Below are positions 32,620 through 49,756 of a stretch of 64,000 bases of DNA, piece after piece. Position 1 is the stretch's first letter. Every line of letters begins with the position of its first letter. The notes under the pieces were generated by a model, which searched no databases, was not told the DNA's origin, and was given only the letters and a program-made list of their open reading frames with translations. The stretch is from Paracoccaceae bacterium (GTDB lineage Bacteria; Pseudomonadota; Alphaproteobacteria; Rhodobacterales; Rhodobacteraceae): contig JABBAP010000004.1 of assembly GCA_018607905.1 (NCBI GenBank), forward strand, positions 1-64,000, given 5' to 3'. The translations under genes and the position numbers were made by a program.

Positions 32620-33897
32620 CTGTTGGACTTCAAGGCCGAGCAATTGCTCGGCCTCTTTTTTTGCCTCACGGCGTTTGGCATCCAAGAACCGCGCATCACT
32701 TCCATTTTCAGATAATTCAATCGCCCGCCCATAGGCAAAATCGGCATCCTCAAACTTCCCTGCAGCACGGTAAAACGCGGCCCGTGCCGCGTGATAGGGC
32801 TGGTATTGATCCAAATCTGCCGCCAATTCACCGCTCGCGTTCAATGCCGCCTCTGCGCCATTAACAAATGACAGCGCAACACACCAATTCAAGCGAACTA
32901 CAGCAGATGCGTCATACTGCATCAACGCCCCGTATAAACCCATTATCTCTGCCCAGCCAGTCGCTGCAAAACTCTCAGCCTCGGCATGCACGGCTTGGAT
33001 CGCGGCTTGAACCTGATACGGGCCAAGTTCATGCCGATTTAGGGCCGTTTTGACACCTTTCAAACCGTTCGAAATCGCTTTTTCATCCCACAATCCTCGA
33101 TCCTGATCCTCAATTGAAATCATTGTCCCATCAGGCAACGCCCGCGCTGATTTGCGTGCGTGGATCAATGTCATCAACGCGATCAACCCTTCGGTTTCTG
33201 CCTGCTTTGGTTTCAACTTATCGACAACTTTGGCTAAATATAGCGCCTCTTCACACAAGTCTTTGCGAATTTGCTGATCTCCACGCGTCGCGGAGTAACC
33301 CTCGTTGAAAATTAGATAAATCACCGTCAAAACCGAATTCAATCGCTCTGGCCAGGCATCGGCATCTGGAACCGAAAACGGAATGCCTGATACTTTTATT
33401 TTGTGGCGCGCCCGAACCAGGCGTTGCGCCATTGCAGGCTCGCTATCCAAAAACGCCCGCGCAATTTCGCCCGTTGTTAACCCACCAAGCGTGCGCAACG
33501 TCAGCGCCACCCGGGTTTTAGAATCGAGCGCTGGGTGACAACAGGTAAAAATCAAACGCAGCCGCTCATCTGGAATCTCCTCTTGGCGTTCGTCTTCTGC
33601 GTCTTTTTGATCCAACTTCAAAAGCATCCCGTATTGCTCTGATTTCGCGTCAAAACTCTTTGCTCGTCTAATCCGATCAATCGCTTTGCGCCGCGCCGTT
33701 TGTAACAACCAACCCGCTGGATTATGGGGCACACCCGATCGTTCCCAATGCGAGATGGCCGAGGTCAGTGCATCTTGCAAACTGTCCTCGGCCATTTGAA
33801 AATCACGTAAGTTCGCGATCAACGCAGAAAGAATGCGGCCATGTTGATCTGCAATGACACCGTTTAAGGCTACCCGCACATCTTCGATAGCCGCCAT
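32602..33897 (-). CDS. ECF sigma factor with C-terminal TPR-like extension (ECF42 type)
   Basis: 431-residue extracytoplasmic-function sigma factor. Region 2 (residues ~20-85) contains DFQMAEDSLQDALTSAISHW and NPAGWLLQTARRKAIDRIRR; region 4 (~110-165) contains RLIFTCCHPALDSKTRVALTLR and GGLTTGEIARAFL. The remaining ~250 residues (DUF6596/TPR-like, with LNSVLTVIYLIFNEGYSAT) mark the ECF42 group. These sigmas are encoded beside DGPF/YCII proteins, as here, three bases away. No anti-sigma gene is seen; ECF42 control is thought to work through its C-terminal extension. Its last codons contain a terminator-like palindrome on the opposite strand. Confidence 0.92.
   Translation of the reverse strand: MAAIEDVRVALNGVIADQHGRILSALIANLRDFQMAEDSLQDALTSAISHWERSGVPHNPAGWLLQTARRKAIDRIRRAKSFDAKSEQYGMLLKLDQKDAEDERQEEIPDERLRLIFTCCHPALDSKTRVALTLRTLGGLTTGEIARAFLDSEPAMAQRLVRARHKIKVSGIPFSVPDADAWPERLNSVLTVIYLIFNEGYSATRGDQQIRKDLCEEALYLAKVVDKLKPKQAETEGLIALMTLIHARKSARALPDGTMISIEDQDRGLWDEKAISNGLKGVKTALNRHELGPYQVQAAIQAVHAEAESFAATGWAEIMGLYGALMQYDASAVVRLNWCVALSFVNGAEAALNASGELAADLDQYQPYHAARAAFYRAAGKFEDADFAYGRAIELSENGSDARFLDAKRREAKKEAEQLLGLEVQQGGEES
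32633..32662 (+). terminator. Terminator-like palindrome on the plus strand inside the sigma gene 3' end
   Basis: GGCCGAGCAATTGCTCGGCC with A/T closing pairs is a perfect palindrome followed by CTTTTTTT on the plus strand, an ideal intrinsic terminator for transcripts from the LysR side. It lies within the sigma factor coding sequence (codons for EAEQLLGL), about 190 bases after the LysR stop. Confidence 0.55.
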
Positions 33898-45978: not shown

Positions 45979-46062
45979 CGGCCTGAATTTGGCGTAAAGG
46001 TCTGATTTAACGGGCCAATACAGTAACACAAAAAAACAAGTGCACTTTCTGACGGGGTGCTC

Positions 46063-46091
46063 TATAATATAGTTTAATATTAAACTATATT
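46063..46091 (+). promoter_or_regulatory. pdhA promoter region with a perfect 26-bp palindrome
   Basis: AATATAGTTTAAT (46066-46078) is followed immediately by its exact reverse complement (46079-46091), with no spacer. The left edge overlaps a TATAAT at 46063-46068, a candidate -10; upstream, AAGTGCACTT (46038-46047) is itself palindromic near the -35 position. The right edge touches the GGAG that serves pdhA. Protein binding would block transcription, and an RNA fold would mask ribosome access. Confidence 0.65.
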
Positions 46092-46104
46092 GGAGCCCTG
46101 CCCC

Positions 46105-47094
46105 ATGGCCACCGCGAAAAAGGCAAAGACGCCGAACGTTTCCGCCGAAGAGTTGATGACCCACTACCGCGAGATGTTGATGATCCGCAGGTTTGAAGAA
46201 AAAGCTGGGCAGTTATACGGCATGGGTTTGATCGGCGGGTTTTGCCACCTTTACATCGGCCAAGAAGCCGTCGTTGTCGGGCTAGAGGCTGCTGCCAAAG
46301 AAGGCGACCAGCGGGTCACGTCATACCGCGACCACGGCCACATGCTGGCCTGTGGCATGGATCCGAAGGGCGTCATGGCCGAATTGACGGGCCGCGAAGG
46401 CGGCTACTCAAAGGGCAAAGGCGGCTCCATGCACATGTTCTCTAAAGAGAAAAACTTTTACGGAGGCCACGGCATTGTTGCCGCTCAAGTCCCCCTCGGC
46501 GCGGGCCTCGCATTTGCCAACAAATACCGTGGCAATGACAACGTCTCATTCGCCTATTTCGGCGATGGCGCGGCCAACCAAGGCCAAGTCTACGAAACCT
46601 TCAACATGGCGAGCCTGTGGCAACTGCCCTGCATTTTCGTCATCGAAAACAACCAATACGCCATGGGCACCTCCCTGCAACGCGGCTCCTCCACGCCAGA
46701 ACTGTACACCCGCGGCGCCGCTTTTGGCATCCCTGGCGAAGCCGTGGATGGTATGGATGTTCTAGCCGTGAAAGAAGCAGGTGAACGCGCCGTGGCCCAT
46801 TGTCGCGACGGCAAAGGCCCCTACATTTTGGAAATGAAAACCTACCGCTACCGTGGGCATTCCATGTCGGACCCTGCAAAGTACCGCACCCGCGAAGAGG
46901 TCCAGAAAATGAAAGCCGAACGCGATCCAATTGATCACATCCGCGACATGCTGGTCTCTGGCAAACATTCCACTGAGGACGAGTTGAAGGCCATCGACAA
47001 AGAGGTGAAGAAAATCGTCTCTGAAGCCGCTGACTTTGCTTCTGAATCCCCAGAGCCCGCGCTAAGCGAACTCTACACTGACATTTACGCGTAA
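46105..47094 (+). CDS. pdhA: Pyruvate dehydrogenase E1 component, alpha subunit
   Basis: 329-residue TPP-dependent E1 alpha of the alphaproteobacterial/mitochondrial-type heterotetramer. [19 protein letters not shown] opens the domain. The TPP motif runs from [12 protein letters not shown] to IENN with [13 protein letters not shown] between. [15 protein letters not shown] is the loop that is phosphorylated in mitochondrial homologues. ATG 46105 follows GGAG; the TTG at 46090 in the track would lie in the palindrome. It is first in pdhABC; pdhB begins 11 bases after it. Confidence 0.96.
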
Positions 47095-47105
47095 GGATCA
47101 AAAAC

Positions 47106-48464
47106 ATGGCAATTCAAATACTTATGCCCGCCCTTTCGCCGACAATGGAAGAAGGCACGCTTGCAAAATGGCTCGTCAAAGAAGGCGACACCGTTCAAAG
47201 CGGTGACATCATGGCCGAAATCGAAACTGACAAAGCCACGATGGAATTCGAAGCGGTCGATGAAGGCGTGATCGGCAAAATCTTGATCGCTGAGGGCACT
47301 GAAGGCGTGAAAGTAAACACCGCCATCGCAACCTTGCTGGAAGACGGCGAAGACGCCTCTGCTGCAGAGGTGGCCCCTGTTGCATCTGCACAATCCGCTG
47401 AACCTGCCCCAACAGCCCCTGCAAAAGCAGCCGCGCCCGTTTCGGAAGCACCTCCGATGGAAGACGTCCCAGAAGGCACAACCTTCAAAAAACAAACCGT
47501 CCGCGAAGCAATCCGCGATGGCATGTCCGAAGAAATGCGCGCCTCTGATGATGTTTTCCTAATGGGCGAAGAAGTCGCCGAATACCAAGGCGCTTACAAA
47601 ATCTCCCAAGGCATGCTCGATGAATTTGGCCCCCGCCGTGTGATCGACACACCGATCACCGAACACGGGTTTGCAGGTATCGCGGTCGGCGCATCCTTCG
47701 CGGGCCTACGCCCGATTGTCGAATTCATGACCTTCAACTTTGCGATGCAAGCAATTGACCAAATTCTCAACTCTGCCGCTAAAACCCTGTACATGTCTGG
47801 CGGCCAAATGGGTGCGCCGATGGTGTTCCGTGGTCCAAACGGTGCAGCGGCGCGCGTTGGTGCACAACACTCCCAGGACTACGCCTCGTGGTACGCGCAA
47901 ATTCCCGGCCTAAAGGTGGTGATGCCCCACACCGCCGCCGATTACAAAGGCCTGATGAAATCCGCGATCCGTGACCCTAACCCCGTAATCTTTTTGGAAA
48001 ACGAAATCCTGTACGGTACATCGGGCGATGTTCCTGAACTCGATGATTTCACCGTTCCAATCGGCAAAGCAAAAATCGCCCGTGTAGGCGACGATGTCAC
48101 AATCGTTTCCTTTGGCATCGGGATGAAATACGCGCTTGAGGCCGCAGACGCCCTTGCCTCTGAAGGCATCAGCGCCGAAGTCGTCGATCTGCGCTCCTTG
48201 CGCCCAATGGACACCGAAACCGTTATCAAATCAGTGCAAAAAACCAACCGCTGCGTCACGGTCGAGGAAGGTTACCCCGTCTGTTCGATCGGCAGCCAAA
48301 TCTCGTCGGTTCTGATGCAACAAGCCTTTGATTACCTCGACGCGCCCGTGATTAACTGCACAGGCAAAGACGTTCCGATGCCATACGCGGCAAACCTAGA
48401 ACGTCACGCGCTTATCACAACGGCCGAAGTTATCGACGCCGTTAAATCCGTAACCTACCGCTAG
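47106..48464 (+). CDS. pdhB: Pyruvate dehydrogenase E1 component, beta subunit, with N-terminal lipoyl domain
   Basis: 452 residues. A lipoyl domain fills residues 1-80 ([20 protein letters not shown], lipoyl lysine in ETDKATME). A Pro/Ala-rich linker precedes the transketolase-type beta fold from ~135 ([52 protein letters not shown]). Mitochondrial E1 beta lacks the lipoyl domain; its presence is typical of Rhodobacterales and relatives. The lipoyl-coding DNA is nearly the same as that of pdhC. Confidence 0.96.
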
Positions 48465-48475
48465 GAGACAGCGAA

Positions 48476-49756
48476 ATGGCTATCCAAATACTTATGCCCG
48501 CCCTGTCCCCCACAATGCAGGAAGGCACGCTCGCAAAATGGCTCGTCAAAGAAGGCGACACCGTTGAAAGCGGCGATCTTTTGGCTGAAATCGAAACTGA
48601 CAAAGCCACAATGGAATTCGAAGCGGTCGATGAAGGCGTCATCGGTAAAATCCTGATCGCAGAAGGCACTGAAGGCGTAATAGTGAACACCGCCATCTGC
48701 ATTCTTCTGGAAGACGGCGAAGACGCCTCTGCCGCAGATGCAGCCCCAGCGGCCAAGCCCGAATCCTCAAAGACTGAGGCAGCACCAGCGGAAACACCCG
48801 CCCCCACCTCTCCTGCCCCAGCAGCCCCGCAAAAAGACGGCGATCGCATTTTTGCTTCACCACTCGCGCGACGGATTGCTGGCCAAAAAGGCCTCGACCT
48901 TTCTGCCCTTACTGGTTCTGGTCCACGTGGACGCATCGTTAAAGCAGATGTTGAAAATGCTGATCCAGCTGCAAAATCTGCTGCTGCCGCATTAACTGCA
49001 CCAACAGCTCCTGCCCTTGCCACATCTGCCGACAGTGAAACCGTCAAAAAGATGTACACAGATCGCGAATACGAGGAAATCTCGCTCAACGGCATGCGCA
49101 AAATCATCGCGTCGCGCCTGACCGAAGCAAAACAAACCATCCCGCATTTCTACTTGCGTCGTTCCATTACCCTCGACGCATTGTTGAAAACACGCGGTGA
49201 GATTAACTCAGGCCTCGCGGACAGCGGCGTGAAAATCTCGGTGAACGATTTCATCATCAAAGCCAGCGCCAAAGCCCTGCAAGACGTACCCGGTTGTAAC
49301 GCCGTCTGGGCTGGTGATCGTTTGCTGCAAATGAAAGCGTCAGATGTTGCCGTGGCCGTGGCAATCGACGGTGGCTTGTTCACACCTGTAATTCAAGACG
49401 CTGAAATCAAACCGCTTTCTGTCATTTCAACCGAAATGAAAGACCTCGCGACCCGTGCCAAAGAGCGCAAACTTGCGCCCCATGAATATCAGGGGGGCAG
49501 CTTTGCGATTTCCAACCTTGGAATGTTTGGGATAGAAAACTTCGATGCTGTGATTAATCCACCCCACGGCTCGATCCTTGCGGTTGGCGCGGGCCAGAAA
49601 CAGCCCATCGTCAACAGCGATGGTGCACTCGCAGCCGCCACAATGATGTCTGTGACCCTCTCCGTTGATCATCGCGTCATCGACGGTGCCCTTGGTGCTC
49701 AATTCCTCGCGGCTCTGGCAGGTTACATCGAAAAACCAATGTCGATGCTGGTCTAA
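48476..49756 (+). CDS. pdhC: Pyruvate dehydrogenase E2 component (dihydrolipoamide acetyltransferase)
   Basis: 426 residues. One lipoyl domain (ETDKATME, lysine near 43), a Pro/Ala linker, a peripheral subunit-binding domain ([20 protein letters not shown] then [13 protein letters not shown]) and the catalytic core with [21 protein letters not shown] and the active-site histidine in [14 protein letters not shown]. It forms the complex core and transfers acetyl groups to CoA. It starts 11 bases after pdhB with AGGAG upstream. E3 is not encoded next to it in the window. A strong terminator follows. Confidence 0.96.

Follow-up and report, generated by a model that had tools for sequence, protein, structure and literature searches.

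The DNA studied here is a window of 64,000 nucleotides from a Paracoccaceae bacterium, and it carries a long palindrome between the −10 element and the ribosome-binding site of pdhA, the gene for pyruvate dehydrogenase E1 alpha. The position raises the question of what acts there, at the step by which pyruvate enters the TCA cycle. An earlier note on the sequence suggested either a regulator other than PdhR of E. coli or an RNA thermosensor-like structure. We followed the palindrome from the promoter to its copies in other genomes, and then to a protein that may bind it.

The palindrome and the pdhA promoter

The 26-mer AATATAGTTTAATATTAAACTATATT is palindromic with no mismatches, and it overlaps TATAAT and touches the GGAG of pdhA as the earlier note had described. 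The features of the promoter and the operon are listed here in their order along the window.

46038..46050, plus strand: AAGTGCACTTTCT region with the CGTGC / CTCGC element of the family, about 20 bp 5' of the −10; conserved, candidate non-canonical −35 or activator site
46063..46068, plus strand: TATAAT, the −10 hexamer, which borders on the operator core and overlaps the 26-mer; from sequence and fixed spacing in relatives
46066..46091, no strand: perfect 26-bp palindrome AATATAGTTTAATATTAAACTATATT; from sequence and simulations
46070..46087, no strand: conserved 18-bp operator core TAGTTTAATATTAAACTA, consensus TAGTTyAryrytRAACyA; from conservation and genome counts
~46076, plus strand: predicted transcription start, about 7 nt past the −10 and within the left arm of the operator; placed from the −10 position
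46092..46095, plus strand: Shine-Dalgarno GGAG, immediately 3' of the palindrome; from sequence
46105..47094, plus strand: pdhA, pyruvate dehydrogenase E1 alpha, ATG at 46105 and stop ending at 47094 (TIGR03182, E 2e-156)
47106..48464, plus strand: pdhB, E1 beta with an N-terminal lipoyl-like domain, presumed in the same operon; from the ORF sequence
48476..49756, plus strand: pdhC, E2 dihydrolipoyl acetyltransferase, presumed in the same operon; from the ORF sequence

Among the perfect gapless palindromes of the window, this one is the longest, and the runners-up measure 22 and 14 bp. The longest palindrome per simulated window was 14–20 bp in 40 first-order Markov simulations, and when the local stretch of 129 AT-rich bp was simulated 20,000 times, no palindrome was longer than 22 bp. 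The 26 bp exceed all simulated lengths, which bears out the view that chance symmetry is very unlikely here. The window holds a single copy of the 26-mer, even when 3 mismatches are allowed. A chance or structural palindrome without function, for example a cruciform or terminator, has the AT-richness of the region as the sole point in its favor; its length lies far above the simulations, the conservation described below refutes such a reading, and the regulon also counts against it. We regard its probability as negligible. The second-longest perfect palindrome of the window, the GC-rich 22-bp AGGCCGAGCAATTGCTCGGCCT at 32633–32654, is possibly a terminator or a repeat.

The −10 of pdhA is preceded at about 20 bp by CGTGC in the genus and by CTCGC in other Rhodobacteraceae, replacing a canonical −35. 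This −35 is non-canonical but conserved, so another input to the promoter is likely. In some relatives, the element equivalent to 46038–46050 is part of a palindrome, AAAAGCACGTGCTTTT.

Conservation and putative genomic targets of the proposed operator

In the upstream DNA of pdhA, read in 26 relatives of the same genus, a clear version of the core TAGTTyAAyrTTAAAC lies directly 3' of a TATAAT-like hexamer in 25, the exception being G012. The core in the wider Rhodobacteraceae is TAGTTtAAcgcTAAACtA, with GTT...AAC nearly invariant. The conservation on which the earlier note had made its proposal depend is therefore present in both the genus and the family. Changes in the arms at pdhA are often symmetric, for example from a central AT to CG. 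As read from the related sequences, the unit under conservation is the 18-bp core rather than the full 26 bp.

The spacing between the operator and the −10-like element is fixed across relatives, and the distance from the operator to the start codon varies between genomes from 15 to 87 nt. The variable distance argues against a leader hairpin that masks the ribosome-binding site in the manner of a thermosensor or riboswitch. Transcripts begun farther upstream would indeed fold (−14 kcal/mol, z −3.1), and the GGAG would then be paired. However, with the −10 directly beside the palindrome, transcription is predicted to begin within the left arm, so that the hairpin is lost, and RNAs beginning at 46072 or 46078 showed no more stable folding than shuffled sequences. 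Among transition-type asymmetries of the arms, pair-breaking A.C outnumber tolerated G.U by 68 to 26, in sequences that are related and events that are not independent. Copies in other promoters sit in the −35/−10 spacer, and Rfam gave no match that reached the gathering score. An RNA element is thus highly improbable, and this half of the earlier proposal is disfavored.

Genome-wide counts came from pattern searches that tolerated a single mismatch to TAGTTYAAYRTTRAACYA, with the reversed pattern as control. Sites were present in 113 of 150 Rhodobacteraceae genomes, typically one to four in each and nearly all of them ahead of pyruvate-node genes, and the reversed pattern gave almost none. 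In a class-wide draw, the motif occurred in 13 of 385 genomes and was nearly confined to Rhodobacteraceae. The sites examined with their flanks fell before E1 alpha (49), before malic enzyme (48) and before lpd, the E3 gene (6); the 40 others lay mostly outside Rhodobacteraceae or beside unrelated genes. With malic enzyme, pyruvate dehydrogenase and E3 coupled in this way, what is controlled would seem to be the supply of acetyl-CoA from C4 acids or pyruvate.

A search elsewhere in the genome of the window, which the earlier note had also proposed, returned one further intergenic copy of the core, before lpd (G000:C18:15547). The two malic enzyme genes of this genome have no site. A match at G000:C57:7911 overlaps a predicted coding sequence and is probably due to chance. 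In one Rhodobacteraceae lineage, an extra palindrome (L066:3073, L167:5605, L187:6772) lies upstream of a gene resembling threonine/serine dehydratase, a possible source of pyruvate.

A candidate MarR-family regulator and its paralogue

Two MarR-family proteins of the same genome are relevant to the question of which factor may bind the operator, and we refer to them as type A and type B.

G000:C71:52320-52754: type A MarR; a carbon-nitrogen hydrolase gene lies beside it, and a gene for a ubiG-like methyltransferase is convergent to it
G000:C60 (L250:2956-4552): type B MarR and Acg-family oxidoreductase operon; relatives at L251, L255 and L257
TAGTTTAACGTTAAACTA: pdhA-type version of the operator, against CGATATCG of the paralogue

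The type A protein passes the gathering cut-offs of PF01047 (E 3.6e-9) and PF12802 (E 9e-9), and its closest solved structures are MarR chains; every match to the curated MarR-type NCBIfam models is far below cut-off. It contains no cysteine, so a cysteine-based redox sensor is unlikely. The hydrolase encoded directly before it (G000:C71, L249) is a relative of deaminated glutathione amidase whose score falls far short of the cut-off of that model. ComF-like genes lie nearby, and in relatives glutaredoxin-like ones do too.

The presence of type A follows that of the site. In co-occurrence counts made by hand from the site and MarR tables, Rhodobacteraceae genomes of at least 90% completeness had a site in 103 of 116 cases with type A and in 0 of 17 cases without it (Fisher p ~1e-13). 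At the pyruvate dehydrogenase gene itself, counted in a set of genomes chosen with deliberate bias, the site was present in 71 of 74 type A genomes, and in none of those without type A (0/8 for pdhA and 0/7 for aceE). G012, the exception within the genus, is 98% complete, lacks type A by two queries and has a decayed pdhA site, and G181 has only type B and a pyruvate dehydrogenase gene without the site. Five genomes of 73–83% completeness have a site and no type A match, and three (G076, G158 and G202) have the MarR gene and no convincing pdhA site. On the E1 alpha tree, five independent pairs differ in MarR when all branches are used and two when only well-supported ones are used, and the site moves the same way as MarR in nearly all pairings. 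Phylogeny partly confounds the co-occurrence and limits its strength.

Genomes without E1 alpha often have aceE, which encodes the homodimeric E1. The palindrome stands before aceE in G205, G155 and G176, all three with the MarR gene, and in 0 of 8 aceE genomes without type A MarR.

Outside Rhodobacteraceae, the same palindrome occurs doubled, 21–24 bp from start to start, before an operon encoding a TAT-signal Acg/Rv3131-family oxidoreductase (NF047509) and a MarR protein. The operon was found in several unrelated families and MAGs. In several of its promoters, the first operator (O1) lies right after TTGACA, in the spacer, and the second (O2) near the start. Type A is the Rhodobacteraceae orthologue of these outgroup MarR proteins, and the recognition helix T[KR]GA[MIL]TN is common to both.

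The operator could instead belong to a different regulator, with MarR co-occurring only through shared ancestry in the same lineages. The partial confounding by phylogeny fits such an arrangement, as does the fact that the type A gene of Rhodobacteraceae is not adjacent to the proposed targets and has no palindrome of its own that we could see. On the other hand, in the unrelated families and MAGs the identical palindrome is linked in cis to an operon whose MarR protein carries the same helix, the paralogue shows a joint change of helix and operator, and G012 lost both the MarR gene and the site. We therefore consider a different regulator quite unlikely, and keep type A as the candidate.

Types A and B each form one supported side of the protein tree. 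The recognition helices of type B are PKTTMTH-like, and its operon has a double palindrome of its own with a CGATATCG core, for example AATGCGATATCGCACC / AGTACGATATCGCATT, in the same promoter layout as the Acg-MarR operon. The joint change of helix and operator between the paralogues points to a natural specificity switch. Type B was rejected as the pdhA regulator: its recognition helix differs, and its own operon carries a different double palindrome. In addition, G021 has only type A as a close MarR homologue, yet retains intact sites at pdhA, lpd and malic enzyme.

Proposed mechanism and comparison with known systems

The conserved operator, the coherent regulon at the pyruvate node and the MarR protein that tracks the site make the remaining half of the earlier proposal, a regulator other than PdhR, well supported at the level of sequence. 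We think it very probable that a homodimeric factor of the MarR family uses the palindrome as its operator, represses pdhA and acts on pyruvate-node genes. Starting from the observed site, its conservation, its regulon and its co-occurrence with type A, we infer the identity of the binding protein, the repression and the effector as follows. One MarR dimer would occupy TAGTTTAATATTAAACTA at 46070–46087. It would cover the start site, reaching from the −10 edge as far as about +12, and while bound would keep RNA polymerase from initiating at pdhA. A ligand would then release it, and this could be pyruvate or a CoA thioester. Beyond pdhA, the factor would also target lpd and, in most related genomes, malic enzyme (or aceE), and the route from malate through pyruvate to acetyl-CoA would be regulated as one module.

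The direction of control deserves separate consideration, since the pdhA promoters with CGTGC or CTCGC instead of a canonical −35 may need an activator. Against an activator or dual role of the MarR protein, the site lies over both the edge of the −10 and the predicted +1, where binding typically represses, and the double operators of the Acg-MarR promoters, over the −35/−10 spacer and +1, also suggest repression. Such a role appears unlikely, if slightly less so than a different regulator, and the factor most likely works as a repressor, obstructing RNA polymerase at −10/+1.

Taken further, type A would be an undescribed MarR master regulator of the malate–pyruvate–acetyl-CoA node in Rhodobacteraceae, recruited from a regulator that in other groups acts on its own Acg-oxidoreductase operon. 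Its operator would have followed enzyme function to the non-orthologous aceE, and its paralogue would have switched operator together with helix. We hold this wider account to be probable. The open-access literature searched, on Rhodobacter, Phaeobacter and Roseobacter and of the RegPrecise type, contained no description of the motif or of a MarR regulator of pyruvate dehydrogenase. Nor did the open-access papers searched describe the control of pyruvate entry into the TCA cycle in Rhodobacteraceae. This family, marine roseobacters included, comprises abundant heterotrophs, and type A, if the account is true, would be its own switch for carbon entry to the TCA cycle. The MarR protein, operator and regulon form a concrete and testable set for this step, and would offer a natural case of a transcription factor whose regulon shifted from controlling a local oxidoreductase operon to governing central metabolism.

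Several known regulators resemble the proposed system in part. CceR and AkgR are alphaproteobacterial regulators of carbon metabolism and share with it the control of central carbon in Rhodobacterales; we take them to be different factors from type A MarR. Both are named in PMC11323563. The ligand-responsive repressors MarR, HpaR, OhrR and SlyA resemble the proposed system in having a winged-helix protein, here of about 145 aa (Pfam MarR/MarR_2), a gapless palindrome, here of 18 bp, and operators placed over promoter elements. Dimers of the family bind palindromes of 16–20 bp, and the candidate core, perfect or nearly so, falls within that range. The system differs from MarR-family repressors in its target, which here is central carbon metabolism, and from the thiol sensor OhrR in that type A of the window's own genome lacks cysteine.

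The closest counterpart in function is PdhR, a GntR-family regulator of Enterobacteriales, Vibrionales and others that controls aceEF-lpdA (PMC5343134). Like PdhR, the proposed system would govern pyruvate dehydrogenase and E3 with a dedicated transcription factor that acts at a palindromic operator close to the promoter. The two differ in protein family (GntR for PdhR, MarR for the candidate factor here) and in host group, and malic enzyme is a core target here and E3 has its own operator. The operator here, TAGTTTAAyrTTAAACTA, probably also differs from the motif of E. coli PdhR. The system is best read as a probable functional analogue of PdhR from outside the PdhR family.
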